Part shown: positions 1,670 through 52,660 of the stretch, piece by piece
Numbering within the stretch: the stretch's first letter is position 1
Layout: each line of letters begins with the position of its first letter
Origin: Candidatus Jettenia sp. AMX2
Lineage (GTDB): Bacteria > Planctomycetota > Brocadiia > Brocadiales > Brocadiaceae
DNA length: 64,000 bases
NCBI GenBank assembly: GCA_030583665.1
Contig: CP129469.1
Coordinates: 868,001 to 932,000 of the forward strand
Reading direction: 5' to 3'
Position numbers and translations under genes: made by a program
The notes under the pieces: generated by a model
Told to the model about the DNA's origin: nothing
Seen by the model: the letters and a program-made list of their open reading frames with translations, nothing else
Database searches by the model: none

Positions 1670-1886
1670 AATTACGTGGTGTTTAATTTTGTTGATTGAA
1701 TGAGGTATTTTAGATAGAATCAATGCAACCTGCAACCCGTCAGTGGTAAAATGACTACAACCAACGCCTTCAATCCGGCGACAAAGGAAGAGATTGGTTT
1801 TTTTGTCACCTGTAATGATATTTTTCAACGGTTATTGCACGAAGCAATCTTGTTTTTGATTATCGTATATACAGACACCACTACGT

Positions 1887-1920
1887 CATTGCGAGGCGAA
1901 GCCGGAGTAATCCGGCTTCG
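1887..1920. repeat. Dispersed REP-like hairpin (CATTGCGAGG family)
   Basis: A CATTGCGAGGCG head is followed by a perfect 10-bp stem, 1897-1906 with 1911-1920, and a GTAA loop. The same CATTGCGAGG head recurs at about 4027, 4089, 12730 and 29325. It lies just upstream of cbiA but has no T run, so it reads as a mobile intergenic palindrome and not a terminator. Confidence 0.75.
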
Positions 1921-1949
1921 CCCGGATTGACAGCAAGAGGAATTTTAAG

Positions 1950-3338
1950 GTGAAAAATACTCCAGTAACATTTCCCCGCATAGTGATTGCCGGCACACAC
2001 AGCGGTGTTGGCAAAACATCTGTTACCCTTGGTTTCATGTCTGCCCTGATAGAAAAGGGATATACGGTTCAGGGCTTTAAAGTAGGACCTGACTATATAG
2101 ACCCTTCCCATCATACGGCTGTTACAGGGCGTTTTTCCCGTAATCTGGATACATGGCTCATGAAGGAGGATGTATGTCTTGAATTATTTGACCATGCAAT
2201 GACAGATGCAGACATGGCAGTGATTGAAGGGGTGATGGGGCTCTATGACGGCTGCCTGGACGGCTCGGAATCCGGCAGTACTGCACATCTTGCCAGGATT
2301 CTGAATGCTCCGGTAATTCTGGTAATGGATGCAAAGGGGATGTCCCGCAGTGCAGGTGCACTGGTAATGGGATATATGAATTTTGATAAAGAGGTGAAGA
2401 TTTCAGGGATAATCCTGAACAGGGTGAAAAGCGACCGCCACTACAACGCCATCAGGAAATCTGTTGAGGAAAATTGCAGGGTTCCTGTGTTAGGATACCT
2501 GCCTTTTCATGAAGAAATCATATTGCCCGAACGCCATTTGGGTTTGGTACCTTCAGCGGAGCAGGAGTTCTCAAAATCAGTATACAAAATAATTGGCAAT
2601 TTGTTGTCAGCCACAGTCGATATTGACAAGGTGATAAGTATCGCACAGTCCTCAAACAGTCTCCCCACATTTGAAAAAACACTATTTACCGGTATGAAAG
2701 AACGCTTTCATTTCAGGATTGCTGTTGCTTCAGATGAGGCATTTAATTTTTATTATCAGGATAATCTTGATCTCCTGGAAGCATATGGGGTAGAACTTAC
2801 ATACTTTAGCCCTCTGTATGATAAATTTGTGCCTGCTGATATTAATGCGATTTACATAGGCGGGGGGTTCCCGGAACTCTATGCAGGTATGCTCGCTTCG
2901 AACACGACCATGAAGGAGTCTCTGCGGAAGGCTTACAACAGAGGGGTTGTTATCTATGGGGAGTGCGGGGGGATGATGTATCTGCTTGAACATTTAACAG
3001 ATCATAAAAAGAAGACGCACGAAATGTGCGGGATACTCAAAGGGACAACAAGAATGGAGGAGAAGAGGCAGGGGCTGGGTTACATTACTGTTGAAGCAGT
3101 GCAGGATACTATTTTCTGTAAAAAAGGAAAGAGGTTCAGAGCGCATGAATTCCATTGGTCATCACGGTATGTGCCTGAGGGAACACCTTACGCATATTTG
3201 GTTTCTAAGTGTGATGAAAAAGAAGCACGGCCGGACGGCATCTCAGATGGTCGTGCATTAGGCTCATACGCCCATATACATTTTGCGACCGATCCGGACC
3301 TGGTAAAACATTTTTTACAAACAATAGGAAAAAAGTGA
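1950..3338 (+). CDS. cbiA: Cobyrinate/hydrogenobyrinate a,c-diamide synthase
   Basis: This enzyme amidates the a and c side chains of the corrin ring using ATP and glutamine. At 462 residues it has the family's usual length. The N-terminal synthetase half carries the P-loop GTHSGVGKT at residues 15-23 and the corrin-enzyme signature VGPDYIDP. The C-terminal half is a class I glutamine amidotransferase with GGGFPELY, the nucleophile Cys in YGECGG, and a late His in AHIHF. The start is a GTG with AGAGG nine bases upstream. It fits the cluster further on that needs adenosylcobalamin for methylmalonyl-CoA mutase. No cobalamin riboswitch was recognised upstream. Four bases after its stop begins the next gene, so the two are probably co-transcribed. 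Confidence 0.92.
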   Translation: MKNTPVTFPRIVIAGTHSGVGKTSVTLGFMSALIEKGYTVQGFKVGPDYIDPSHHTAVTGRFSRNLDTWLMKEDVCLELFDHAMTDADMAVIEGVMGLYDGCLDGSESGSTAHLARILNAPVILVMDAKGMSRSAGALVMGYMNFDKEVKISGIILNRVKSDRHYNAIRKSVEENCRVPVLGYLPFHEEIILPERHLGLVPSAEQEFSKSVYKIIGNLLSATVDIDKVISIAQSSNSLPTFEKTLFTGMKERFHFRIAVASDEAFNFYYQDNLDLLEAYGVELTYFSPLYDKFVPADINAIYIGGGFPELYAGMLASNTTMKESLRKAYNRGVVIYGECGGMMYLLEHLTDHKKKTHEMCGILKGTTRMEEKRQGLGYITVEAVQDTIFCKKGKRFRAHEFHWSSRYVPEGTPYAYLVSKCDEKEARPDGISDGRALGSYAHIHFATDPDLVKHFLQTIGKK

Positions 3339-3341
3339 AGA

Positions 3342-3977
3342 GTGATGGATTGGATTGATGTATCGGTTACGATACATAGTGGTATGGTTTCCTGGCCTGG
3401 TGATCCTGACGTGTGCGTCAGACGTGTCTCCGATATGGAAACAGGGGATATGGTGAATTTAACCAGACTGGATATGAGTGTACATAGCGGTACACACGTT
3501 GATGCGCCTCTGCATTTCCTCAGAAAAGGCAAAGGAATTACGGATATGCCGCTGGGGGCTATGATAGGAGAAGCACGGGTAATAGAGATAACGGATCCGG
3601 AATCCATTAAGACCGACTTGCTCTTGCCGTATGCCATTGAGAAGGATGACCGGATTCTTTTTAAAACAAAAAATTCACAACGCGATTGGACTCAAGAGCC
3701 TTTCATTGAGGATTTTGTTTATATCACTACAGAAGCAGGACGTTATCTGGTTGAATGCGGTATCCAGACTGTTGGCATCGATTATCTTTCGGTGGCAGGC
3801 TACAAGAAAAATGAGGTTGAGCTTCACCGCCTGCTTCTTGGCGCGGATATCTGGATTATCGAAGGTTTGAATTTATCACACGTGAAAGCAGGGCGTTATG
3901 AACTGATCTGCCTGCCGATCAGGATTGCTGACAGTGACGGTGCACCCGCACGGGTGCTGTTGCGGCCGATGGCGTAA
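3342..3977 (+). CDS. Cyclase-family metal-dependent hydrolase (kynurenine formamidase-like)
   Basis: About 210 residues, typical of the Cyclase family (PF04199), which includes kynurenine formamidase and isatin hydrolase. The metal-binding signature HSGTHVDAPLHF is near residue 48, and an early DVSVTIHSGMVSWPGDP matches the substrate-side motif. Later residues include GIDYLS and EGLNLSHV, also family-typical. Either the GTG at 3342 or the ATG at 3345 could start it; the difference is one residue. It follows cbiA by three bases, but a corrin role is not implied by the family and the pairing may be incidental. The physiological substrate cannot be told from sequence. No other tryptophan-catabolism gene is visible nearby. 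Confidence 0.85.
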   Translation: MMDWIDVSVTIHSGMVSWPGDPDVCVRRVSDMETGDMVNLTRLDMSVHSGTHVDAPLHFLRKGKGITDMPLGAMIGEARVIEITDPESIKTDLLLPYAIEKDDRILFKTKNSQRDWTQEPFIEDFVYITTEAGRYLVECGIQTVGIDYLSVAGYKKNEVELHRLLLGADIWIIEGLNLSHVKAGRYELICLPIRIADSDGAPARVLLRPMA

Positions 3978-4026
3978 AAAGAGTTTCTAGTACAACGTTT
4001 CATAAAAACCTATACAAAAACGAATG

Positions 4027-4209
4027 TCATTGCGAGGAGTGGAGATTCCTCGCAATGACATTGTAAGGTCGCTGAGATTTTTCGTCTGTCATTGCGAGGA
4101 GCGAAAGCGACGAAGCAAACTCGGAGACTGCTTCGCTAACGCTCGCAGCAGGCTCCGCAATCTCTTGTTCTATAAAGCCTTAAGATTGCTTCGCTGTCGC
4201 TCGCAATGA
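4027..4209. repeat. Cluster of CATTGCGAGG dispersed palindromes
   Basis: Several units stand in tandem: CATTGCGAGGAGTGGAG with an inverted CTCGCAATGAC at about 4027-4061, then CATTGCGAGGAGCGAAAGCG from about 4089, ending in inverted GCTCGCAATGAC near 4199-4210. The units pair with each other. An open frame through this block is made only of the repeat and is not a gene. Confidence 0.75.
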
Positions 4210-4274
4210 CAATACATATGTAAACATATTTGCAGTACGATACACTAGCGGGAATGATGTCCTGACCTTCCTGA

Positions 4275-4805
4275 TTAATAGTTACCGCTCTCAAGCAGTG
4301 TTTTCCAGCGGTTTATGTGACCGTCTTCGTCGTTTTGATCCTTCTCGATCATTTGGCGCACATCTGCGTCCCACTCAACATCTTCGAGTAATTTTGCGTA
4401 ATGGTGAACCGCTTTTGTCTCAACCCAGATGCCCGTCCGCAGAATCTGCCGTTTGCCAAGAAGCCGGCTCAGGAAGCCGAAACAGAAGCCGATAATCCAA
4501 TACCCCATACGCATGACGCTCGGCCGTGCTCCGTATTCATAGAGTTTTACCTGAAAGTCCTGATGGTGCGTCATTTCGTTGCACATTGCCGTAATCAACT
4601 GACGGTTTAACTCCGATGCTTCTTTGGTAATCTGAAACCGGTAAATAGTAACTGCCATGGTTTCAAGATTGTGGAATACACGCAGCGCTTTAATAATAGC
4701 ACGCCGCCGCGCCCGGGGCATCGGCTCCCTGCGCAGCCTGAAATCCTCTTCACGCATCTGAGGGCAAATGATTTTGATATCATACCTGTTGTGATCAATT
4801 ACCAT
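4275..4805 (-). CDS. COQ7/demethoxyubiquinone-hydroxylase-like di-iron protein
   Basis: A 176-residue ferritin-like four-helix protein. The di-iron ligand pattern is complete and well spaced: Glu48, Glu77-x-x-His80, Glu129, Glu160-x-x-His163. That pattern and the length fit the COQ7/UbiF hydroxylase family, which hydroxylates a quinone precursor on the membrane. The segment around residues 100-116 is hydrophobic and could lie on the membrane. If the organism is an anammox planctomycete it would use menaquinone, so the true substrate may differ; that part is inference. The gene stands alone. The exported-protein gene at 4903-5496 lies upstream on the same strand, about 97 bases away. Confidence 0.7.
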   Translation of the reverse strand: MVIDHNRYDIKIICPQMREEDFRLRREPMPRARRRAIIKALRVFHNLETMAVTIYRFQITKEASELNRQLITAMCNEMTHHQDFQVKLYEYGARPSVMRMGYWIIGFCFGFLSRLLGKRQILRTGIWVETKAVHHYAKLLEDVEWDADVRQMIEKDQNDEDGHINRWKTLLESGNY

Positions 4806-6214: not shown

Positions 6215-8476
6215 ATGATGCTCCATTTACGCAGGGCAATACTCTTAGGGTTATTTACTGGTCTGTTAGGAATAATGATCGGTTTTTTCCCTTTCGTGAG
6301 CGGTCTTGAAGAAAAAGCAGATCTTGATTTGTTATTTAGGTTGAGAGGTCCCCGTCAGGTGCCGCCGGATGTCGTTATTGTCAGCATAGATAAACATTCC
6401 GCCCAAAAACTCAATATCACCGGCGACCTTAAGGAATGGCCCCGGTCTCTTCATGCTTCACTTATTGAAAGTCTGACCAATTTAGGCGCTGGAGTTATTG
6501 CGTTTGACCTTCTTTTTCACGAACCTGCCACATCAGAGGATGACGATGCATTTGCCAGGGCAATCAGCAAGACGTCCAATGTTATACTCTGTGAATCACT
6601 GAGAAAGGAAACAATTCCTTTGCCTGACAAAAGGGGTCCTCCCGCCGGGGATATTCATATGGTGAAACTGGTACAACCAATTCCTCTCTTTACACAATCG
6701 GCTCTGGCAACAGCGCCGTTTCCCCTGCCTAAAGTTCCTGTCCGAGTAAGTCAGTATTGGACGTTTAAAACATCTGCCGGAGAGAGGCCGACCTTTCCGG
6801 TTGTTGCCTTCTATATCTTTGCATTACCGCAGTACAATAAATTCATACAGTTGCTGGAAAAGCATGATCCTTCGGTAGCCGGTAGATTACCCAGCGACAT
6901 GAATGAAGTAATTCATTCAAAATCTATGATAAGGGTTATTGAGGTAATCCGGGATATTTTCAGAAAAAACCCCTGGATTGCAAAGAAAATGCTAAAAGAG
7001 CTTGAAGCGTTACCGTCAATATCTGCGGATGCCAGAGAAAAACAGATTCTCAGGTCGTTGATACGGATTAACCACTACCAGGACTGCCGGTATTTGAATT
7101 TTTACGGACCTCCTGGCACCATTCCTACGATTTCCTATTATCAGGTATTGCAATTTGCGGATAAATTGAAAATTGAACAAAAGCCGGCCTATTTTAGTAA
7201 CAAGGTTGTATTTATCGGGTCTTCCGGAGATTTATACTCTTTCCAGAGGGATAGCTTTTATACGGTTTTTTCACAGCCGGACGGATTGGACCTCAGTGGA
7301 GTTGAAATTGCCGCAACTGCATTTGCAAACACCCTCGAGGATATGCCAGTGCTTCCTCTTTACGGGTATTCCTACTTGGGGACTATCTTTTTCTGGGGTT
7401 TTACCGTAGGCATTATTTGTTATCTCTTCTCTACGGGTATTTCAGCAGCCGGTGTTACGGGAATAAACGGTGTGTATTTGCTCTTTGCACTGTATCAGTT
7501 TGAGAAGGCAGGTGTATGGTATCCGCTGACTATCCCTCTTTTTATACAATCACCTCTTGCTTTTTTTACCGCTATAATAGGAAGATATGTTGAGGTAAGC
7601 AAAGAACGGAAAAATATCAAAATGGCTTTCAGACATTACATACCGGATGATGTTGTTGACCAGTTGTCAAAAAACCTTGCAGGGTTAAGAACACACAATC
7701 AGTTAGTTTACGGAACATGTTTATCAACAGACGCTGAACAATATACCTCCCTGTCTGAGACCCTTGATCCGAAAGAGCTGAGAAGTTTTATCAATACATA
7801 CTATGAAGCTATCTTTGAATCGATAAAACGGCATGGCGGGCTGGTGGCAAATGTAATTGGCGATTCTGCGCTTGCGCTATGGGTCATGACACATCCGGAT
7901 GAAGAACGCAGGGTACAGGCGTGCCTTTCGGCTCTCGATATACAATGGGGAATCAGGCGGTTCAATCAATCTTCCCCTTTTATGCAGCTTCCTACCCGTA
8001 TCGGATTACATTCCGGACATATGCTGCTTGGAAATATTGGCGCTGCAGATCATTACGAGTACCGTCCGATAGGCGATATAGTCAATACGGCAACAAGGAT
8101 AGAGGGATTGAATAAATACCTCGGCACCAGAATCCTGGTTTCTGAAGAAGTGATTACCAATGTTGATGATTTTCTGACAAGGGAGATCGGGAAATTTCTC
8201 CTGGCAGGGAAATCAAGACCTCTTGCAATCTTCGAATTATTGTGTCTGAAAGAAGAATCCAATCAACGGCAGAGGGATCTTTGTTTATGGTATGCTGAAG
8301 CGCTCGATGCATTTAAAAGGCAGTTGTGGTATGAGTCGATGGAAAAATTTTATAAAATCATCAGAATATACGGAGATGACGGACCTTCAGTATTTTATAC
8401 AAAATTGTGCAAAAAATACAGAAACAAACAGTATGGAGAATCGTGGAACGGGGTGATTTGCATGCGGAAGAAATAG
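6215..8476 (+). CDS. CHASE2-domain class III adenylate/guanylate cyclase
   Basis: A 753-residue membrane receptor. Residues 8-28 form a first membrane helix, residues 30-380 an extracytoplasmic CHASE2 sensor (IDKHSAQKL, ALPSISADAREK), then three helices at about 385-460. The cytoplasmic cyclase domain (about 490-670) keeps both metal Asp (STDAEQYT and IGDSALALW) and the transition-state Asn/Arg (IVNTATRIEGLNK). At the two base-specifying positions, usually Lys and Asp, it has Asn (NVIGD) and Glu (YEYRPIGD), so substrate is not predictable. A helical tail of about 70 residues, TPR-like, ends it. Start at the first of two ATGs, with AGAGG in front. A candidate c-di-GMP riboswitch and terminator lie upstream. 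The FecR protein gene follows after 96 bases. Confidence 0.9.
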   Translation: MMLHLRRAILLGLFTGLLGIMIGFFPFVSGLEEKADLDLLFRLRGPRQVPPDVVIVSIDKHSAQKLNITGDLKEWPRSLHASLIESLTNLGAGVIAFDLLFHEPATSEDDDAFARAISKTSNVILCESLRKETIPLPDKRGPPAGDIHMVKLVQPIPLFTQSALATAPFPLPKVPVRVSQYWTFKTSAGERPTFPVVAFYIFALPQYNKFIQLLEKHDPSVAGRLPSDMNEVIHSKSMIRVIEVIRDIFRKNPWIAKKMLKELEALPSISADAREKQILRSLIRINHYQDCRYLNFYGPPGTIPTISYYQVLQFADKLKIEQKPAYFSNKVVFIGSSGDLYSFQRDSFYTVFSQPDGLDLSGVEIAATAFANTLEDMPVLPLYGYSYLGTIFFWGFTVGIICYLFSTGISAAGVTGINGVYLLFALYQFEKAGVWYPLTIPLFIQSPLAFFTAIIGRYVEVSKERKNIKMAFRHYIPDDVVDQLSKNLAGLRTHNQLVYGTCLSTDAEQYTSLSETLDPKELRSFINTYYEAIFESIKRHGGLVANVIGDSALALWVMTHPDEERRVQACLSALDIQWGIRRFNQSSPFMQLPTRIGLHSGHMLLGNIGAADHYEYRPIGDIVNTATRIEGLNKYLGTRILVSEEVITNVDDFLTREIGKFLLAGKSRPLAIFELLCLKEESNQRQRDLCLWYAEALDAFKRQLWYESMEKFYKIIRIYGDDGPSVFYTKLCKKYRNKQYGESWNGVICMRKK

Positions 8477-8572
8477 GAGTGAACCTTATCTTTATGCTTT
8501 GTATAGTATACAGGGAGCAGGAATAAAAATGAGAGGGGTATAATCACTCTGGCTGCCTTAGGAGGTGCAGGC

Positions 8573-11500
8573 ATGAAGTTAATTCAAACTTTTTGTTTAA
8601 GCACAGTCATATTCTTAATTATACAAACGGAGGTCATATTCACGAAGCCTGTTTTCGCAAATGCCGATGAGGAATGGCTCGCTAAAATCGTGTCGGTGCA
8701 GGGAGATGTACAAGCCAGAAAAAAAGATACCATGCAGTGGGAGCCTGTTACCTTATCTGATGCCTACTATTCCGGTGATACAATCCGGGTACTGGAAAAC
8801 AGCCGGGCCTGTATTGTTCTGAGTAACGAGTCAGTTATCCGCCTTGATCAAAATACTACCGTAACCTTTATCGGCATAGAAGAGAAACAAACCTCTTTCC
8901 TGGACATGCTCACCGGGGTATTATACTTCATCAGCCGTACACCCCGTGCTTTAAAAGTCACGACACCTTTCGTAGATGGTACCGTAAAAGGTACGGAATT
9001 CCTGATTGTAGTTACAGAAGATGAAACCATACTTACCCTGTTTGAAGGTCAGGTATTAACGGAAAATCAGACAGGCTCCCTCTTACTGAGCAGTGGTCAG
9101 TCGGCAATTGCCAGGGACGGGCAGGCGCCTGTGCCGTATGTTATCGTACGTCCCGGAGATGCAGTACAATGGGCGCTGTATTATCCGCCAATTATCGATT
9201 TCCGGCCGGAAGACTTTCCGGGTGACGAGGATTGGCAGGTAATGGTTCGGGAGTCCATTCAGCATTATTGGAAGGGGGATTTGTTAAAGGCATTTTCCAG
9301 CATCGAAAGAATACCAGAAGATGTCCGTGATACAAGTTTTTTTAACTATCGGGCGGCATTACTGCTTTCTGTTGGAAGGGTGCATGAAGCGCTTTCGTAT
9401 ATCGAAAAGACATTGAACCTCGATCCGGAAGACGGTCATGCAATTGCCCTTCAGTCAATTATCGCTCTTGTGCAGAACGAGAAAGAGAGGGGTCTGGAAC
9501 TTGCGCAGAAAGCCGCAGATGCAGATCCCGTTTCTGCTGTGCCAATGGTTGCCCTTTCTTACGCCCACCAGGCAGGTTTTAACCTTGAAGAAGCTGTGGC
9601 AAACGTACGGAAGGCTGTTGAGATTGATCCTGAAAACGGATTGGCATGGGCACGGCTCGCTGAACTCCTGCTGTCACTGCGGTATACCGGTAAGGCCATT
9701 GAAGCTGCAAACAAGGCTGTGGCATTGAATCCTGATCTGGCAGGCACCCATATTGTTTCAGGATTCGTTTCCCTGATTCAGGTTAAGATGCAGGAGTCTT
9801 TTCAATCTTTTGAAAAGGCGATTGAACTGGATCAGGCAAACCCTCTTGCACGGCTGGGTCTGGGTCTTGCAAAGATACGGCGGGGGAAGATAAAAGAAGG
9901 ACGCAGGGAGGTTGAGATAGCAGTTGGTCTTGATCCTCATCAGTCAATTATCAGGAGTTACCTGGGGAAGTCCTACTATGAGGAAAAACGCAGTAAGCTG
10001 GCAGGGGATCAGTTTACGATAGCGAAAGAGCTTGACCCCCTTGACCCCACACCCTTTTTTTATGATGCAATCCGGAAACAAACCGAAAACCGTCCGGTTG
10101 AGGCACTGCAGGATTTGCAAAAATCGATCGAATTAAACGACAACCGGGCCTTGTACCGGTCCCGCCTGCTGCTTGATAGTGATCTGGCAGCGCGAAGCGC
10201 AAGCCTTGCCCGGATTTATACAGACCTGGGATATCAGCAACTTGCCTTGGTAGAAGGCTGGAAATCAGTTAATATTGATCCAGGCAACTATTCTGCTCAC
10301 CGGTTCCTTGCCGATTCTTACTCTGCGCTGCCGCGCCATGAGATTGCAAGGGTAAGCCAGCTCCTGCAGTCTCAGTTATTACAACCTGTTAACATAACCC
10401 CCGTTCAGCCTCAGCTTGCAGAAAGTAATCTGTTTATCCTTGAAGGGTCCGGTCCGACTGACCTTTCTTTTACCGAGTTCAACCCCCTTTTTCTCAGAAA
10501 CCGGTTTGGATTGCAGGCGAGTGGTGTTGCGGGTGGGAACGCCACCCTGGGATCTGAGATTATCCATTCAGGCGTATACGACAGACTGTCTTACAGTGTT
10601 GGTCATTTTCATTATGAGACTGACGGATTTCGGGAGAATAATGATCAGGAAATTGATATTTACAATCTTTTTACCCAGTTTAGCATTTCACACAAGACGA
10701 GTATTCAGGCAGAGTTTCGTTATCTTGACAGAGAAAGGGGTGATCTGCCGCTCAGGTTTAATCCGGACAATTTTATAAGTACCTTCAGGCAGGAGGAAAT
10801 AACACGGTCTGCCCGTTTCGGCTTGCATTACGCCTTCACACCCCATTCCAGTCTTATTACCTCTTTTACTTACCAGAAGAAGGATTTTACCACAAGATTT
10901 TCAGAGGTTATTGACTTTGAATCCGACGAGGAAGCGAAAGGTTTTACCGGCGAGATCCAACATATATTCCGCACGGATCAATTCAGCATTATCAGCGGGG
11001 CAGGGCACCATAACGCAGATGTTGAAGAGGTACAAACCATCACGTTTCCACCATTTCTTCTCATTCCACCGATTTCTACAGAAAGAGACATCGATACCCG
11101 TCATACCAACCTTTATGTGTATTCGCAACTTTATTATCCCGATACGGTGACCTGGACACTTGGGGGAAGCGCTGATTTTTTTAATACAAACTTTGATCCC
11201 GGAGAGATAGATCGTGATCAGTTTAATCCAAAGTTTGGGGTGATATGGAATGTATTTTCTAAAACAACCGTGCGTGCTGCCTTGTTCAGGACCTTAAAAA
11301 GGTCGCTGATATCGAATCAGACCATAGAACCCACCCAGGTAGCGGGTTTTAATCAATTCTTTGATGACCCTACAGGGACGGATGCCTGGCGTTATGGAGT
11401 TGCTGCCGATCAAAAATTTTCCCAAACCCTGTATGGAGGAGTAGAATATTCCAGAAGAAAACTGGATGTGCCTTTTAGGGCAATAGATACCATTGATAGT

Positions 11501-11944
11501 GCTGACTGGAAGGAGCGCCTGTCCCGGGCCTACCTTTACTGGACACCGCATCCATGGCTGGTAACAAGCGCAGAGTTTTTCTATGAGCGGTTTGAACGGG
11601 ATGAAGAAGCTGTGGGCGTGGAACGGTTAACCAGGAGCAGAATCTTCCGGTTTCCTTTAGGGGTCAGTTTCTTTCACCCTTCTGGTTTTACTACGAGATT
11701 GAAGGCGACCTTTGTAGACCAGGAGGGGAAATTTGTAGAATTTCCAGATGAGGTACCGGGGGAAGATCAGTTTTGGTTATTTGATGCCGCCGTTGGTTAC
11801 CGCTTACCCAGACGATGGGGATTTATCTCTGTTGAGGCGAAAAACCTGTTCGATAAAAAATTCAGATTCCAGGATACGGATCCTGCAAGCCCTTTGATCA
11901 TTCCGGAACGCCTGATACTTGCCAGGGTCACCTTGTCATTCTAG
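8573..11944 (+). CDS. FecR-domain, TPR and TonB-dependent-receptor-like beta-barrel fusion
   Basis: A 1123-residue envelope protein. Signal peptide about 1-30 (cleavage near FANA). Residues about 40-195 are a FecR domain (IVSVQGDVQARKKD, GDTIRVLENSRACIVL, VDGTVKGTEF). Residues about 215-600 are TPR repeats with repeated NLDPEDGHAIAL, EIDPENGLAWARL and ALNPDLAGTHIV units. Residues about 620-1123 are a beta-barrel similar to the C-terminal part of TonB-dependent receptors (EAKNLFDKKF near the end, terminal Phe), without a recognisable plug domain. It would be anchored in the outer membrane with FecR and TPR parts in the periplasm. The ATG has GGAGG eight bases upstream. FecR-type proteins next to CHASE2 cyclases recur in bacteria, so a shared envelope signalling role is likely (inference). 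Confidence 0.85.
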   Translation: MKLIQTFCLSTVIFLIIQTEVIFTKPVFANADEEWLAKIVSVQGDVQARKKDTMQWEPVTLSDAYYSGDTIRVLENSRACIVLSNESVIRLDQNTTVTFIGIEEKQTSFLDMLTGVLYFISRTPRALKVTTPFVDGTVKGTEFLIVVTEDETILTLFEGQVLTENQTGSLLLSSGQSAIARDGQAPVPYVIVRPGDAVQWALYYPPIIDFRPEDFPGDEDWQVMVRESIQHYWKGDLLKAFSSIERIPEDVRDTSFFNYRAALLLSVGRVHEALSYIEKTLNLDPEDGHAIALQSIIALVQNEKERGLELAQKAADADPVSAVPMVALSYAHQAGFNLEEAVANVRKAVEIDPENGLAWARLAELLLSLRYTGKAIEAANKAVALNPDLAGTHIVSGFVSLIQVKMQESFQSFEKAIELDQANPLARLGLGLAKIRRGKIKEGRREVEIAVGLDPHQSIIRSYLGKSYYEEKRSKLAGDQFTIAKELDPLDPTPFFYDAIRKQTENRPVEALQDLQKSIELNDNRALYRSRLLLDSDLAARSASLARIYTDLGYQQLALVEGWKSVNIDPGNYSAHRFLADSYSALPRHEIARVSQLLQSQLLQPVNITPVQPQLAESNLFILEGSGPTDLSFTEFNPLFLRNRFGLQASGVAGGNATLGSEIIHSGVYDRLSYSVGHFHYETDGFRENNDQEIDIYNLFTQFSISHKTSIQAEFRYLDRERGDLPLRFNPDNFISTFRQEEITRSARFGLHYAFTPHSSLITSFTYQKKDFTTRFSEVIDFESDEEAKGFTGEIQHIFRTDQFSIISGAGHHNADVEEVQTITFPPFLLIPPISTERDIDTRHTNLYVYSQLYYPDTVTWTLGGSADFFNTNFDPGEIDRDQFNPKFGVIWNVFSKTTVRAALFRTLKRSLISNQTIEPTQVAGFNQFFDDPTGTDAWRYGVAADQKFSQTLYGGVEYSRRKLDVPFRAIDTIDSADWKERLSRAYLYWTPHPWLVTSAEFFYERFERDEEAVGVERLTRSRIFRFPLGVSFFHPSGFTTRLKATFVDQEGKFVEFPDEVPGEDQFWLFDAAVGYRLPRRWGFISVEAKNLFDKKFRFQDTDPASPLIIPERLILARVTLSF

Positions 11945-12058: not shown

Positions 12059-12319
12059 ATGCCTGATATCATGAGAATTAATATAAGTGAAAATGGCGCT
12101 GCAAGAAGATTAGATGAATTCAGAATATCAGTAGTAGGTAACGGTCTTCAACAAATATATAATAATAGGGAGGAATTTTTCAGGGATGTTGATAGCGATA
12201 GGAATCAACCAAATGCTACAGTAAGAGAATATTCTATGAATCTTATTTACATCAGCCATAGTCCCGGGTGTATTTATTATTATGATAGCCAGGGGATTCT
12301 TCGTAAGATTTGTTCATAA
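12059..12319 (+). CDS. Small protein of unknown function (86 aa)
   Basis: An 86-residue protein with a strong ribosome site (AAAGGAGAA seven bases before ATG). It begins MPDIMRINISENGAARRLDEF, is rich in charged and aromatic residues, and ends with a Cys-Ser pair. It has no membrane helix or signal peptide, so it should be cytoplasmic. I do not recognise the family. It follows the FecR-barrel gene by 114 bases; an unattached GGAGG at 11974-11978 lies in between. A hairpin at 12377-12415 stands just downstream and may end its transcript. Confidence 0.55.
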   Translation: MPDIMRINISENGAARRLDEFRISVVGNGLQQIYNNREEFFRDVDSDRNQPNATVREYSMNLIYISHSPGCIYYYDSQGILRKICS

Positions 12320-13601: not shown

Positions 13602-14563
13602 TCATAAATCATCCAGAGGACTTCGTACACCTTTTCCTCCTTTATTGAGGACATGGGTATAGATCATCGTGGTAGAAACATCTTTGTGGCTGGGCAATTC
13701 CTGTACGGTACGGATATCGTAGCCATCTTCAAGTAAGTGAGTAGCAAAACTATACCAAAACGTATGGCAACTTGCAGGCTTATTGATTCCAGATGCACGA
13801 ACCGCAGCCTTTACTGCCTTTTGTAAGACTGTTTCATAAATATGGTGTCTCCGTTCTATCCCTGATCTTGGGTCAATAGAACGATTGGAAGCAGGGAATA
13901 CCTATTGCCAGGCAAATTCTCTTTCAGCATTTGGATATTTTTTTGCAAGTGCAAAAGGCAGGTAAACTTTGCCAAAACCTTCTTTCAAATCCTGTTTACG
14001 TAAGATCTTACCTTTTCTAAATGCTTCTTTAACGGTTCTTTCAAAGACTCGGGCAACATTGTTAACCGATCTTTGTCACCCTTCCCATCCCTGACCACAA
14101 TCTGATTATACGAAAAATCTATATCCTTAACCCTGAGTCCCAGACATTCCATCAACCTGAGACCAGCGCCGTATAAAAGACTGGTCATGAGCCATTTCGT
14201 TCCCTCCAGCCTGAGCAATACTGCCTTTGCTTCCTCCTTGGTAAAAACAACCGGTAAATGAGAGGGCTTTTTTGCCCTCTTTACGTTATTTATCCAGCCA
14301 AGTTCTTGCTTGAGCACTTCTTGATAGAGAAACAAAATAGCGCTTAATGCCTGATTCTGCGTAGAAGCAGATACCTTTCCCTCAACGGCAAGATGAGAAA
14401 GAAATTTACTGACTTCAGCCTCTCCCATCTGTAATGGATGCCTTTTTTCGTGAAAAAAGATAAATCGTTTAATCCAATGAACATACGCCTCTTCGGTTCT
14501 CATGCTGTAGTGCTTTACCCGGATTGCATCACGCACCTGATCTAATAATTTTGGTTTTGGCAT
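13602..14563 (-). pseudogene. intI: Integron integrase (tyrosine recombinase), inactivated
   Basis: The intact N-terminal 185 or so residues match integron integrases (MRTEEAYVHWIKRFIFFH, LLYGAGLRLMECLGLRVKDIDF). The frame then breaks near 13990. The remainder continues in another frame as [20 protein letters not shown], the extra segment that distinguishes IntI from other tyrosine recombinases, and runs to [12 protein letters not shown]. An in-frame TAG follows EFAWQ, at about 13900. The box II motif HxxR has become HTFWYSF, so the catalytic Arg is lost, and the usual LGHKD is PSHKD. The nucleophile region STTMIYTHV is kept. With a frameshift, a stop and a lost catalytic residue, it is dead. 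It reads away from the cassette side, as in normal integrons. Confidence 0.9.
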
Positions 14564-47101: not shown

Positions 47102-49330
47102 ATGTTAAATGAGTGTTTTGCAACCAGGAACGACCTGGATATCAGTGAACTGATATCATTTGTTAACACGGAACAATATGATAAGCTTGAGGATGCCTGG
47201 TTAACAATTGTTGAGTCCGGCAACAAGGATATCCAGTTCCTCCTGGATGTCGTTGATGTATTGATAAAACGAGAGGAAAAAAGACGGGCGCACGATTTGC
47301 TGACGACACTTATTCCTTATTATAAAGGCAAAGAGCAGTATTGTGATGTCTTAAAGGTACTGAAAAGAATATTAGAGCATAATCCGCATGCAAAAGGGCT
47401 GATAAGTGAAGTTACAGAGTGTTACGTAAACATTTATAAAAACAGACCCTATGCAAAGGATATTGTGGAGAGAATGTTTGGTAATGTAGAAGTAGCATCT
47501 GCTATCCATAATGCTATCAAGAAACTGGAAAGATATTTTTACCTGGATTGTGGTGATTACGTGTATCATAAAAGCTGGGGCGTTGGCAAGGTAATTTCTA
47601 TTGATACACTGGGAGAGAGGATACATATAGACTTTGAGAAAAAAAGCAATCATAGTATTGCTATGGATATTGCACCTGATATTTTGCAGAAGCTTGACAA
47701 AGACGACTTACTTGCAATGATGTATGCTCAAAAAGAAGTATTGCATGGAATGATCAGTGACGATCCGGTCGGTTTAATTAAATTAGCGTTAAAATTTTTC
47801 AGAGGAAAGGCTTCTGTTTCTCAGGTAAAAAACCGGCTTGTATCGGGTATTATACCGCCGGAAGCCTGGAGCAAATGGTGGACAAATACAAAAAAGCTGG
47901 TCAGAAAAGATCCGTATATAAAGCTCACCGATGGTACACCGGCCAATTCTTTTCTGGAACTCCGTGCATCACCGATTACCCAACATAAAGAGGTTCTTGA
48001 GAATTTAATTTATACAAAGGATGTCAGTGAAAAAGTTGAAACCGCAAGAAAGTACCTTTCTGAACTAAAGGATACCGAACAATGCATGGAAACCCTGAAC
48101 GAGATAAAAGCTATCTTTATACAGGAAGTTAATACCCTGAATCAGACGAATCCTCCTCTTGCAGCAGAGTGTCTTTTGCTTCTTAAAGGCATTCAGGGCT
48201 TTATGAAAGAAGATGCAACAGAATATGTAACTAGTGCCAAGACAGCGATTAGCACAAATGAAAATCTGCCTGAGTTTATTCATACAATGAATATTCTGGA
48301 ATACAGAAAGCAAATTCTTTGTTTCCTGAAAGAGGCTAAGCCGGAAAAATGGCAGGAGGAATTTGTTTCTATATTTTTTACCAACGATGGTAATTTGTGG
48401 GAATTTATTGTGAAGGAGCTTATTGCCGAAAATAAACAGAACTCCCTCGAAGAACTTTCCTTAAAAATATTTAATCACTTCAATGCATATCCGGAACACT
48501 ACATTTGGTTCTGTAAAAATGGTATGTGTGGCCGGTATCCGGAGCTTTATAAAAACATAGATATTGCCATCATGTTTAATCGGTTAATTGAGCTTTCGGA
48601 TAATATCTATTTTAAAATTCAAAAGGGGCGTGATGGAAATTTAAAGACCATTGCGAATAAAATCAAAAACCTCCTGGAGAACAGGGGGGTTGATTATGTC
48701 AGTGGTGTTCTTGATGATGCTAATGCGGAAAGCATTTTTAACGTTGTTTCCAGCAGTAAGGGTTTAGAGGACTGGTTTAAGGTCGCGGTTGAAAATATTA
48801 TCCAGGACCGTTTCCCTGATATGTTTGAAAAACCTGGCTTGCCGGAACTCGACGAGAATAAAATCTATGTTACGAAAGAAGGGTTTGAGAAAAGAAAAAA
48901 GGAATTCGACCATCTTATGAATGTAGAATTTGCAGAAAATGCACGTGATCTCGGAGAAGCTATTAGCAGGGGTGATCTGCGGGAAAATGCTGAGTACAAA
49001 GCAGCACGGGAAAAACAGGCTTTGCTGGTTGAAAAGGGTGAGCGTATGAAGGCTGAATTGCAAAAAGTCGTTATTATTGAACCGTCTTCGGTCCATTCCG
49101 ATACGGTATCTCCTGGCGTAAAAGTTACGATAAAAAACAAGGAAAAAGCAGCATTGGAAATATATACTTTATTAGGACCCTGGGATACCAATATAGAAGA
49201 AGGCATTATTTCGTATCTGTCTCCTATTGGGAAGGGGCTGATTAATAAACAGGCAGGGGATATCGTGACGATTAAACTGCCCGAAGGAGAGTGTACCTAC
49301 GAAATCGTAAAGATTGAAAAGGCGATATAA
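47102..49330 (+). CDS. greA: GreA-family transcript cleavage factor with long N-terminal extension
   Basis: A 742-residue protein. The last 155 residues are a normal GreA: a coiled coil with the tip motif GDLRENAEYKAAREKQ, carrying the Asp and Glu that rescue backtracked polymerase, and the C-terminal FKBP-like part (EIYTLLGPWDTNIEEGIISYLSPIGKGL). Ahead of it lie about 585 residues, helical at first (TPR-like), then a small barrel-like piece (YVYHKSWGVGKVISIDTLGERI, KOW/CarD-like). Usual GreA has 158 residues. The chlamydial GreA is similarly extended. GGAG stands eight bases before the ATG. Mfd follows nine bases later, so two RNA-polymerase rescue factors share an operon. Confidence 0.9.
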   Translation: MLNECFATRNDLDISELISFVNTEQYDKLEDAWLTIVESGNKDIQFLLDVVDVLIKREEKRRAHDLLTTLIPYYKGKEQYCDVLKVLKRILEHNPHAKGLISEVTECYVNIYKNRPYAKDIVERMFGNVEVASAIHNAIKKLERYFYLDCGDYVYHKSWGVGKVISIDTLGERIHIDFEKKSNHSIAMDIAPDILQKLDKDDLLAMMYAQKEVLHGMISDDPVGLIKLALKFFRGKASVSQVKNRLVSGIIPPEAWSKWWTNTKKLVRKDPYIKLTDGTPANSFLELRASPITQHKEVLENLIYTKDVSEKVETARKYLSELKDTEQCMETLNEIKAIFIQEVNTLNQTNPPLAAECLLLLKGIQGFMKEDATEYVTSAKTAISTNENLPEFIHTMNILEYRKQILCFLKEAKPEKWQEEFVSIFFTNDGNLWEFIVKELIAENKQNSLEELSLKIFNHFNAYPEHYIWFCKNGMCGRYPELYKNIDIAIMFNRLIELSDNIYFKIQKGRDGNLKTIANKIKNLLENRGVDYVSGVLDDANAESIFNVVSSSKGLEDWFKVAVENIIQDRFPDMFEKPGLPELDENKIYVTKEGFEKRKKEFDHLMNVEFAENARDLGEAISRGDLRENAEYKAAREKQALLVEKGERMKAELQKVVIIEPSSVHSDTVSPGVKVTIKNKEKAALEIYTLLGPWDTNIEEGIISYLSPIGKGLINKQAGDIVTIKLPEGECTYEIVKIEKAI

Positions 49331-49339
49331 ATAATTTAT

Positions 49340-52300
49340 GTGAAAAATGTTATTTCCTTATTAAAGCAAAACAGGCAATACAAGAGGATTCTTTCCCATC
49401 TCTCGGCAGGAAAAGATTGTTTTATCAACGGGCTTTGGGGGTCGTCTGCAAACTTTGTTATCGCTGCCCTTGCCAGCGAACGTTTCAAAAGGGTAAAGAA
49501 ATGCCCCGGAATCCTTCTTGTTGTAGCCAGCATTGAGGAAGCCCTGGATGATTATGAAGACCTTACAACCTTTATCGGGGGGCATGCCAGCCTGTTCCCG
49601 GCCACCGAGAGTTTCATCATGGAGGATGAATATGACAGCATAGCACAGAAGGTACTCATCCTGAAACAGATATTTTATCGCGATACCAATCTGCAAAACA
49701 AACCGGATATTGTTGTTGTGCCTGTTCAGGCACTTTTACAGCCGGTACCATCCCCCGCAAGTATTTCTGAAAATAGTTTACATATCAGGAAGAATCAGGA
49801 ATATCCCCGTGAAGAACTTATAGCCTGGCTACAGGATCATCAGTATAGGATGTCCACCCAGGTTGAAGATGCCGGGGAATATGCTTTACGGGGAGGCATT
49901 GTCGATATTTTCCCGTATGCTTCAGAATTTCCTTACCGTATCGAGTATTTTGGTGATGAAGTAGAGTCTATCCGCAAGTTTGATATTGAATCCCAATTAT
50001 CAGAAAAGGATTTAGATACCTGTCAGATACTATCCCTGGATAGAATCTTTGGTTCAACTCAGCCCCTCGTTGGTAGTTCTCCTGATTCTTCGCATTCCAG
50101 AGGGAAGGCAGCGAAGATTAACAATAACCCAAAAGTATCTGCCTGTCCTTCAGAACCACAAAAAACATCTCTTTTACGTTATTTACCTGCCGGTACCTGG
50201 ATTGTTCTGAAAGAACCTGCATGCATAGAAGAACGGGCAAAGAAGGTATTGAGCAATTTCGGTACAAACGATGCATTGTTTACTGTTGATGAGATTTTTG
50301 AGCAGTTTGCCACATTTACAAAAATAAATATATCCAGACTTCCTGTTACTTTTAACAACGGCGATTATACATTTCATGTCAAATCTGCAGACGGCTTTCC
50401 CCAGAATATTGAGGGAATTGTAACTGAACTCGGTAAGATAACCGAAACCAACGGTAATACAGTTGTTGTCTGCAATAATGTTGCAGAGAAACAACGCTTT
50501 CATGAAATTATTGACGATTCTCCTCTTAAAGATCACGAACGTTTAAAACTGTGTACCGGACACCTGCATAAAGGGTTTCAATTTTCTGATATCAATATTG
50601 CTATCCTTGCACACCATGAAATCTTTCACCGTTATCAACAGCGTCGTGAGGTAAAAAAACCTGTCCAAGCAAGGGCAATTGATTCATTCCTTGAATTAAA
50701 AAAGGGGGATTATGTAGTACATATCGCTCATGGTATCGGGCGTTTCCTGGGTATGGAAACGCTGGAGGATGAGGGGCATAAACGTGAATACCTCGTTCTG
50801 GAATTTGATGAAGGCACGAAGGTGTATGTTCCTGCTGCAAAGATCGAATTAGTCCAGAAGTATATTGGCAGTTCAGATTCCAGGCCTGTGCTGGATAAGA
50901 TCGGTTCCAGATATTGGGAGGTAAGGAAGAAACGGGTAGAAAATGCGGTTAAGGATGTTGCAAGTGATTTACTTCATATTCAGGCATTACGGAATGTAAA
51001 GGATGGCATTGCTTATCCCCCGGATACCGAATGGCAGAAAGAGTTTGAAGCATCATTTCTTTATGAGGAGACAGCCGATCAGCTTCAAATTATAGAGGAC
51101 GTAAAGCGGGATATGGAATCTAAAAGGCCAATGGACCGGCTTATTTGCGGAGATGTCGGATACGGGAAGACTGAGATTGCCATGAGGGCGGCTTTCAAGG
51201 CCGTGATACATGGAAAACAGGTAGCGGTACTCGTGCCCACAACAATCCTTGCACAGCAGCATTATAATACATTTTCAGAGCGTATGGCCGATTATCCGGT
51301 AAAAACCGAGGTGTTAAGCAGGTTTAAATCGAAGAAAGAGCAAAAAGATATCCTGGAGAAAACATCTGCAGGTCTTGTCGATATCCTGATTGGTACCCAC
51401 CGTCTTTTACAGAAAGATGTCTATTTTAAAGATATTGGTCTGATTATCATCGACGAAGAACAGCGGTTCGGTGTTGAACATAAGGAGCGTCTTAAGAGAT
51501 TACGGCAAACAGTAGACGTCCTTACCTTAACCGCCACACCAATTCCACGAACACTCCATATGTCACTGATGGGGATAAAGGATATTTCTTCACTGAATAC
51601 GCCTCCTTTAGGGCGGCAGGCGATTCATACCAGGATTATACGGTTTAATCCACAGCAGATACGGCAGGCCATTTTGTATGAGCTTAACCGGGAGGGGCAG
51701 GTGTATTTTGTTCACAATCGTGTATATAATATCGAGCAAATCGCCAAGACCCTGTCTGGAATTGTACCAGAGGCACGAATCGCGATCGTTCACGGGCAGA
51801 TGGATGAGAAACTTATGGAGCAGAGGATGAGAGGGTTCATAAATCATCAGGCAGATATCCTTGTATGCACAACAATTATCGAGTCAGGATTGGATATTCC
51901 GAATGTGAACACGATAGTAATCAACGGTGCGGATACCTTTGGTCTTGCTGACCTGCATCAGTTACGCGGAAGGGTAGGCCGGTACAAACACCGTGCTTAT
52001 GCTTATATTCTATTACCGGATGACCGTCCTGTTACCCCGGAGGCCGAAAGAAGGATAAAGGCCATTGAGGAATTTGCTGAATTGGGTGCGGGTTTTCGGA
52101 TCGCTATGCGTGACCTTGAAATCAGGGGTGCAGGGAGTATTCTGGGAACAGAACAGCATGGTCATATTGCGGCTGTAGGTTATGAAATGTACTGCCGGTT
52201 GCTGGAAATCGCAGTGCGTAAGGCAAAGCATGAGCAGTATGAAGAGCCGCCGGAAGTTACGATTGACCTGAAACTTGAATCGTTTATTCCCGGAAACTAC

Positions 52301-52660
52301 ATTCGGGAAGATGCATTGAAAATGGATATTTATCGCAGACTGAACCGTTCTGTTACTCTGGAAGAAATAAGGGCAATTGCCGGAGAGATAACAGACCGTT
52401 TTGGTGGCCTTCCTTATCCTGTAAGAAATCTCCTTTCAGAAAGCGAATTAAGGGTTATTGCGAGGCACTCGAAAATACGCTCTCTCGTGCGGGTGGATAA
52501 TCTCTTAATAATAAAGGTTACCGATTTAAAAAAGGCGGAAAAATGCCTGGGTAATTTTGAAAAATATATCCGTATCATTAACGAAAACACCTTGCATATG
52601 CGATTGCCGAAAAAAGCAATACATTCTTCCGAAGATTTACTGGATTTTCTCAGGTTATAA
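49340..52660 (+). CDS. mfd: Transcription-repair coupling factor Mfd
   Basis: An 1106-residue DNA translocase that removes stalled RNA polymerase and recruits nucleotide-excision repair. Parts in order: UvrB-like N-terminal (1-320), RNA-polymerase-interaction domain with KKGDYVVHIAHGIGRF, helicase domains with GDVGYGKTEIAMRAA, DEEQRFGVEHKERLK and TATPIPRTLHMSLMG, the LRGRVGR helicase motif, and the C-terminal TRCF domain. The start is a GTG; an ATG two bases earlier is out of frame. Residues about 240-280 hold a Ser- and Pro-rich linker that may be lineage-specific. Cotranscribed with greA. Confidence 0.95.
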   Translation: MKNVISLLKQNRQYKRILSHLSAGKDCFINGLWGSSANFVIAALASERFKRVKKCPGILLVVASIEEALDDYEDLTTFIGGHASLFPATESFIMEDEYDSIAQKVLILKQIFYRDTNLQNKPDIVVVPVQALLQPVPSPASISENSLHIRKNQEYPREELIAWLQDHQYRMSTQVEDAGEYALRGGIVDIFPYASEFPYRIEYFGDEVESIRKFDIESQLSEKDLDTCQILSLDRIFGSTQPLVGSSPDSSHSRGKAAKINNNPKVSACPSEPQKTSLLRYLPAGTWIVLKEPACIEERAKKVLSNFGTNDALFTVDEIFEQFATFTKINISRLPVTFNNGDYTFHVKSADGFPQNIEGIVTELGKITETNGNTVVVCNNVAEKQRFHEIIDDSPLKDHERLKLCTGHLHKGFQFSDINIAILAHHEIFHRYQQRREVKKPVQARAIDSFLELKKGDYVVHIAHGIGRFLGMETLEDEGHKREYLVLEFDEGTKVYVPAAKIELVQKYIGSSDSRPVLDKIGSRYWEVRKKRVENAVKDVASDLLHIQALRNVKDGIAYPPDTEWQKEFEASFLYEETADQLQIIEDVKRDMESKRPMDRLICGDVGYGKTEIAMRAAFKAVIHGKQVAVLVPTTILAQQHYNTFSERMADYPVKTEVLSRFKSKKEQKDILEKTSAGLVDILIGTHRLLQKDVYFKDIGLIIIDEEQRFGVEHKERLKRLRQTVDVLTLTATPIPRTLHMSLMGIKDISSLNTPPLGRQAIHTRIIRFNPQQIRQAILYELNREGQVYFVHNRVYNIEQIAKTLSGIVPEARIAIVHGQMDEKLMEQRMRGFINHQADILVCTTIIESGLDIPNVNTIVINGADTFGLADLHQLRGRVGRYKHRAYAYILLPDDRPVTPEAERRIKAIEEFAELGAGFRIAMRDLEIRGAGSILGTEQHGHIAAVGYEMYCRLLEIAVRKAKHEQYEEPPEVTIDLKLESFIPGNYIREDALKMDIYRRLNRSVTLEEIRAIAGEITDRFGGLPYPVRNLLSESELRVIARHSKIRSLVRVDNLLIIKVTDLKKAEKCLGNFEKYIRIINENTLHMRLPKKAIHSSEDLLDFLRL

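Follow-up and report, generated by a model that had tools for sequence, protein, structure and literature searches.

A two-gene locus of the anammox bacterium Candidatus Jettenia sp. AMX2 raises the question of whether an event at the outer membrane can be passed on to a cytoplasmic cyclic nucleotide by a pair of envelope proteins encoded side by side. The locus lies in a 64,000-nucleotide window of the genome (bases 868001-932000 of the single 3.46 Mb contig CP129469.1) and comprises a gene for a CHASE2 receptor nucleotide cyclase (hereinafter the cyclase) followed, after 96 bases and on the same (+) strand, by a gene for a receptor-like protein that joins FecR, TPR repeats, and a predicted outer-membrane barrel in one chain (hereinafter the receptor; Table 1). 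Both open reading frames (ORFs) were recovered at the coordinates given in an initial annotation made from the sequence alone, and a search for a terminator-like site between them found none. We show below that this pair represents a distantly related and more widely distributed form of the known NsrA-CyaK kind of Sinorhizobium meliloti, and propose that it probably forms a trans-envelope receptor-cyclase module working in the same manner.

Predicted architecture of the receptor

Pfam recognizes in the receptor a FecR domain (residues 69-161, E 4e-13), many TPR families, and a TonB_dep_Rec_b-barrel match (residues 714-912, E 1.6e-6), which lies just over its cut-off and is too weak to decide the matter, so that the barrel assignment rests on the AlphaFold model. 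This model, built with 62 sequences (mean predicted local distance difference test score [pLDDT] 88.1, predicted TM-score [pTM] 0.85), predicts a plug-less barrel whose 22 strands span residues 644-1122. Its long loops all fall at odd positions, with only short turns at the even ones, as one would expect if the two ends of the barrel lie in the periplasm. No Plug domain is listed by Pfam at E up to 0.1, and the linker between the TPRs and the barrel, at ~40 residues in the model, leaves no room for one. The top solved structures retrieved by Foldseek are the receptors FpvA, FptA, FhuE, and FecA (E down to 6e-17); a second aligner matched the model to PirA (Z 18.8, 407 residues, root-mean-square deviation [rmsd] 3.1) and FoxA (Z 18.3, 484 residues, rmsd 3.9), with the barrel aligning with FoxA, FhuA, PirA, and others across 400-490 residues. 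Toward the N-terminus, the PupR signalling domain (6ovk_R) aligns with residues 66-272 of the model (Z 17.4, rmsd 2.1, 135 aligned). The single-chain combination of FecR, TPR, and plug-less barrel claimed in the initial annotation is thus borne out by Pfam and the model, with the correction that the TPR region spans ~410 residues in the model rather than the ~380 originally given; the barrel, whose closure had been named as a decisive check, is predicted to close with 22 strands in the fashion of TonB receptors and has structural matches to known ones.

An alignment of the window receptor with 61 further sequences from 59 of the 79 homologous loci described below (cut-off and odd sequences being excluded) yields conservation values of 0.80 for the last TPRs, 0.57 for the inner strand halves, and 0.43 for the outer strand halves; the last third of the TPR region (480-603) is the best-conserved large part of the chain. 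The lesser conservation of the outer strand halves relative to the inner halves and the last TPRs is the pattern expected of a receptor. Most outer loops vary, with the exception of a near-invariant one between strands 13 and 14 (Table 1), which has a conservation of 0.76, rising to 0.85 in its motif (914-930), and which may be a stand-in for the plug or a binding site.

The cyclase and its active site

The upstream gene encodes a protein with CHASE2 (residues 23-397, E 1e-31) and Guanylate_cyc (504-667, E 7e-13) domains in Pfam, in agreement with the earlier view that a cyclase with an outside sensor adjoins the receptor. Its model (pLDDT 88.1, pTM 0.65) displays an N-terminal helix, a mixed domain, three more long helices, and a cyclase fold. 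Transmembrane (TM) helices, read from the model helices, lie at 2-23, 384-404, 407-432, and 439-472, and the model separates a periplasmic CHASE2 part (~26-380), a class III domain (~495-680), and a helical C-terminus (684-735).

In an alignment of 53 rows, the positions of D506, D550, N624, and R628 are kept in 53, 53, 52, and 53 of the 53 cyclases, respectively. We take D506 and D550 to be the metal-binding aspartates and N624 and R628 the transition-state asparagine and arginine, and the window cyclase possesses this full set of two metal aspartates, asparagine, and arginine that class III cyclases require. Adenylate cyclases carry Lys and Asp/Thr at the two base-selecting positions; the window cyclase, with N546 and R617, departs from this class III adenylate cyclase signature. 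Across the 53 cyclases the first base-selecting position is D in 27, N in 14, K in four, and another residue in eight, and the second is R in 36 and another residue in 17, with three rhizobial/Methylocystis cyclases showing K and S; the assignment of these positions was checked against the alignment with 2w01 (the guanylate cyclase Cya2) alone. An acidic residue among base contacts is not unheard of, since Y50, D94, and R97 are described as the base contacts of a uridylate cyclase (PMC11224242). The PycC profiles of PADLOC match the window cyclase (E 3e-16), and as they match the rhizobial cyclases too, the match does not discriminate. A Pycsar anti-phage system was considered and rejected, there being no PycTM or PycTIR effector among the window neighbours scanned.

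Conservation of the pairing across genomes

To the first of the questions that adjacency poses, viz., whether the two genes stand together by accident, a scan of a genome collection with eight query sequences gives an answer. The best 79 of 441 relatives' loci were retained, picked by receptor similarity and not by neighbours; they belong to Nitrospirota, Desulfobacterota, Beta- and Gammaproteobacteria, Brocadia, Methylomirabilota, Rokubacteria, Poribacteria, and Acidobacteria. An ORF for CHASE2 and/or a cyclase is present in the flanks of 64 of these 79 receptor loci, so that chance does not explain the pairing. The partner ORF lies upstream on the same strand in 53 loci, within 400 bases in 45 of them, and L046 is one more upstream case that was scored as downstream through an ORF-start artefact. 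The neighbourhoods, for which a survey had been suggested at the outset, are hence non-random: of the 15 partnerless loci, six have too little flank (L044, L068, L071, L080, L087, L109) and nine are true exceptions. The receptor and cyclase distance matrices of 42 pairs (loci present once in both alignments, minus L064, L066, L067, and L073) correlate with r 0.745, whereas none of 2000 shuffles exceeded 0.306; this correlation is partly explained by the shared ancestry of the genomes.

In the Jettenia genome itself, CHASE2, Guanylate_cyc, and FecR have a single match each, all inside this pair. The receptor family occurs in five of 59 anammox-relative genomes, its own included (E up to 1e-30), with a cyclase homologue directly upstream of the receptor in G029, G030, and G056. 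The receptor of G056 is split by a stop (L033:7910-11442), and a receptor remnant stands alone in G001 (L034:8470-9609), with no cyclase nearby, indicating that the receptor gene decays in some relatives.

Two departures from the usual arrangement were also observed. In L058 (4974-7190) a CHASE2-SpoIIE phosphatase fusion replaces the cyclase beside the receptor, which suggests that CHASE2 is the constant partner and that the output can vary. In L081 (6965-14512) and L094 (2032-10234) two receptor copies occur in tandem with one cyclase, such that one cyclase could serve two receptors.

Relationship to NsrA-CyaK and other known systems

The closest studied precedent, overlooked in the initial annotation, is NsrA with CyaK (and CyaD1/CyaD2) of S. 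meliloti, where a signal is reported to require both NsrA and CyaK, with NsrA feeding cyclic AMP synthesis by CHASE2 cyclases (PMC7529298, PMC13001267). NsrA is described as an outer-membrane barrel feeding these cyclases (PMC13001267), with its barrel at residues 600-1200, and this relative of the window receptor responds to an outside protein signal (PMC7529298). Among our loci, rhizobial and Methylocystis plasmids encode FecR-TPR-barrel proteins of ~1220 amino acids with a CHASE2 cyclase alongside. The S. meliloti pSymB receptor (L030, L139) has FecR and TPR but matches a barrel family only weakly; the protein encoded beside it contains CHASE2 and cyclase domains by Pfam in strain SM11 (L139), used in place of strain ml56 (L030), whose cyclase is broken in frame. 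From its length, its barrel at 600-1200, its location on pSymB, and the adjacent CHASE2 cyclase, this ORF is most likely NsrA and the pair NsrA-CyaK.

Both halves of the window receptor are homologous to those of the NsrA-type family by hhalign (FecR/TPR half: probability 99.9; barrel half: probability 98.0 over 385 columns), compared with a probability of 4.5 for a control with ordinary TonB receptors, thin at three sequences. The two systems further share FecR, TPR, and a C-terminal barrel in one chain of ~1200 residues and an adjoining CHASE2 class III cyclase. However, the S. meliloti receptor has only ~20% identity to that of the window and its gene comes first, whereas the cyclase gene is first in the window; the three aligned NsrA-type cyclases have Lys as against Asn in the window cyclase at the first base-selecting position; and the window CHASE2 domain carries ~100 extra residues. 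With the conserved pairing and the barrel model, the outer-membrane-to-nucleotide reading first put forward for this locus gains in weight. As a separate observation, a gene for a PycTM-type (DUF5706) membrane effector stands divergently beside the rhizobial receptor in 3/3 loci tested with PADLOC (L030:4202-4747, E 2e-15; L141:2211-2750, E 3e-13; L028:6186-6938, E 1e-15), and L139 and L140 have a similar PycTM-like arrangement by eye.

More distant parallels are found in other envelope systems. A Campylobacterota cluster, which we compare by its published description, likewise combines a CHASE2 cyclase with a FecR-domain outer-membrane protein, for which its authors inferred a single pathway; in that cluster, however, FecR and TPR proteins are described as the products of different genes, and there is also a phosphodiesterase (PMC9239204). 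In the Burkholderia BiofilmReg operon, a FecR-domain envelope protein adjoins a CHASE2 transducer, but with a peptidoglycan-binding LysM instead of a barrel and a histidine kinase instead of a cyclase (PMC5192318). With TonB-dependent receptors and FecA-FecR the window protein shares the 22-stranded barrel and a FecR-type domain; it differs from them in having no plug ahead of the barrel, in carrying FecR in the barrel chain rather than as a separate inner-membrane anti-sigma protein beside a sigma factor, and in the lack of a sigma factor among the seven window neighbours scanned. A FecA-type reading was rejected on account of the missing plug and these neighbours. No account of a FecR-TPR-barrel/CHASE2 family in its own right was found in the open-licence literature, which is weak evidence.

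Cyclic-nucleotide-binding proteins as candidate readers

Of the 681 ORFs neighbouring the receptors, 29, spread over 26 of the 79 loci, match a profile built from Crp-type neighbours. The first conserved-neighbour cluster (45/79 loci) was rejected as one family, being a single-linkage mix of Crp, sigma-54 activators, and response regulators; only its cNMP-binding-domain part was used, with Pfam, run on 37 of its 51 members, reporting cNMP_binding in 26. For scale, the whole 3.46 Mb Jettenia genome has two cNMP_binding matches, viz., a Crp-type regulator (L137) and a stand-alone domain (L138). The Crp protein (G000:C1:1342511) is the putative nucleotide reader in this organism; a Brocadia CRP homologue with unclear input has been discussed previously (PMC8510549).

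Proposed mechanism and its alternatives

The observed domain order, predicted plug-less 22-stranded barrel, intact catalytic residues, conserved pairing, frequent cNMP-binding neighbours, and pSymB homology are consistent with a relay in which the barrel in the outer membrane would meet something outside, or register a change of the outer membrane itself. The change would then be relayed via the linker and the periplasmic arm of conserved TPRs and FecR to the CHASE2 domain, upon which the inner-membrane cyclase would start or stop making a cyclic nucleotide, to be read by Crp-type proteins. The periplasmic contact of the two proteins, the direction of control, the ligand, and the nucleotide are all putative components of this scheme; as a reading built on conservation and a studied relative, the relay from outer membrane to nucleotide is well supported.

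Several observations weigh against it. Nine adequately flanked loci (L055, L061, L069, L070, L086, L095, L097, L098, L107) have no local partner; CHASE2 is encoded elsewhere in the genome for six of them, and the Nitrosospira genomes of L086, L097, and L107 have no CHASE2 match at all. Among the partners counted, those in L064, L066, L067, and L073 belong to a different cyclase subclass and score weakly for CHASE2. Conversely, CHASE2 is present in 29 of the 59 relatives, commonly without this receptor, and just one of 20 CHASE2 loci fetched from relatives has a FecR-like neighbour within 1.5 kb. Finally, no Crp or other cNMP-binding gene lies beside the pair in the window.

The persistence of the barrel protein in those three Nitrosospira genomes lends itself to an alternative, which survives best of those considered even if we regard it as unlikely, namely that the barrel serves as a channel for uptake or export whose expression or activity the cyclase regulates, the pair being a transporter-regulator operon. 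The structural resemblance to TonB receptors fits such a role, and polysaccharide is exported by TPR-barrel proteins, BcsC and PgaA among them. However, the absence of a Plug domain and the short linker imply that there is no TonB-type gating, the receptor is usually partnered by a CHASE2 sensor, and neither a synthase nor an uptake gene occurs among the window neighbours scanned. An exporter of the BcsC/PgaA type was rejected on account of these neighbours and of strand number, the barrels of BcsC and PgaA having 16 strands as against 22 in the model; that neither is among the 50 structure matches listed by itself excludes nothing.

About equally unlikely is a bolder version of the relay, in which plug-less TonB-type barrels across phyla would act purely as sensors, coupled by CHASE2 to some nucleotide other than cyclic AMP. 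It is suggested by the Asp/Asn and Arg at the base-selecting positions, by the contacts reported for the uridylate cyclase (PMC11224242), and by the PycTM-type effectors beside the rhizobial relatives, and some members may accordingly turn an event at the outer membrane, e.g., phage or protein attack, into cyclic GMP, UMP, or CMP and a defence response. We give slightly less credence to the possibility that the same barrel-to-CHASE2 relay senses the state of the envelope (outer-membrane assembly or crowding, or the distance between membranes) instead of a soluble ligand: the near-invariant loop and conserved inner half stand out against other loops that are mostly short and variable, and a TPR rod of 410 residues could be long enough to bridge the periplasm, yet the S. 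meliloti relative answers an outside protein signal (PMC7529298). A relic of FecI/FecR/FecA-type signalling, in which FecR would still address a distantly encoded sigma factor and the cyclase would be a bystander, is very improbable despite the match of the FecR domain to PupR (Z 17.4), for that domain follows the signal peptide within the barrel chain with no anti-sigma part or TM helix between, the seven window neighbours scanned include no sigma factor, as the initial annotation had already remarked, and CHASE2 and/or cyclase genes stand at 64/79 loci.

Further features of the window and of partnerless loci

The features of the pair are collected in Table 1. On the 3' side of the receptor gene, an ORF of ~86 codons with a ribosome-binding site was seen by eye on the same strand (12059-12319), and a short, perhaps broken phage-type integrase ORF lies farther downstream on the - strand (13985-14563). 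The window holds one more gene pair of comparable size (47102-49330 and 49340-52660), which was judged unrelated, consisting by eye of a GreA-like fusion followed by Mfd.

Table 1. Features of the cyclase-receptor pair (positions in the window)
Feature	Position	Strand	Basis
CHASE2 receptor nucleotide cyclase gene, 753 aa	6215..8476	+	ORF, Pfam, model
Cyclase active-site D506, D550, N624, R628 (kept); base-selecting N546, R617 (not canonical)	7730..8098	+	alignment
Ribosome-binding site AGGAGG and spacer preceding the receptor ATG	8560..8572	+	by eye
FecR-TPR-barrel receptor-like protein gene, 1123 aa	8573..11944	+	ORF, Pfam, model
Signal peptide region, residues ~1-31: helix 2-23, then VFANA	8573..8665	+	sequence, model; cleavage by eye
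FecR domain, beta fold, residues 37-189	8681..9139	+	Pfam, model, PupR structural match
TPR superhelix, residues 194-603	9152..10381	+	Pfam, model
Predicted 22-stranded outer-membrane barrel, residues 644-1123, C-terminal Phe, plug-less	10502..11941	+	model
Near-invariant loop, strands 13-14, residues 909-936, QTIEPTQVAGFNQFFDD	11297..11380	+	alignment, model; extracellular by strand parity

The neighbours of the partnerless loci include a GGDEF-EAL protein (L070), a protein kinase (L069), a BTAD regulator (L061), and a peptidase (L055). Just upstream of the receptor homologue in L098 lies a gene (1738-4569) for a regulator that combines cNMP-binding, sigma-54 interaction, and 4Fe-4S parts. 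In the Nitrosospira loci L086, L097, and L107, a TIR-TPR protein is encoded downstream of the receptor, and sigma-54 proteins are likewise among the neighbours (by Pfam, TIR was tested in L086 and sigma-54 in L097 and L107).

Implications

In the literature that we found, signalling from a barrel to a cyclic nucleotide is established in one rhizobial case. What the present analysis adds is the breadth of the module, its fixed FecR-TPR-barrel receptor, the frequent Crp-type neighbours, and the unusual base-selecting residues, together with its occurrence in an anammox bacterium as the only CHASE2 and only Guanylate_cyc match of the genome. The distribution suggests that the module is widespread, with a recognizable receptor architecture, its carriers including nitrifiers, methanotrophs, sulphate reducers, and anammox bacteria. 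If the proposed relay holds, the pair would be a candidate source of the ligand for the anammox Crp regulator (cf. PMC8510549), and a plug-less barrel serving solely as a sensor would widen the known roles of TonB-type barrels.

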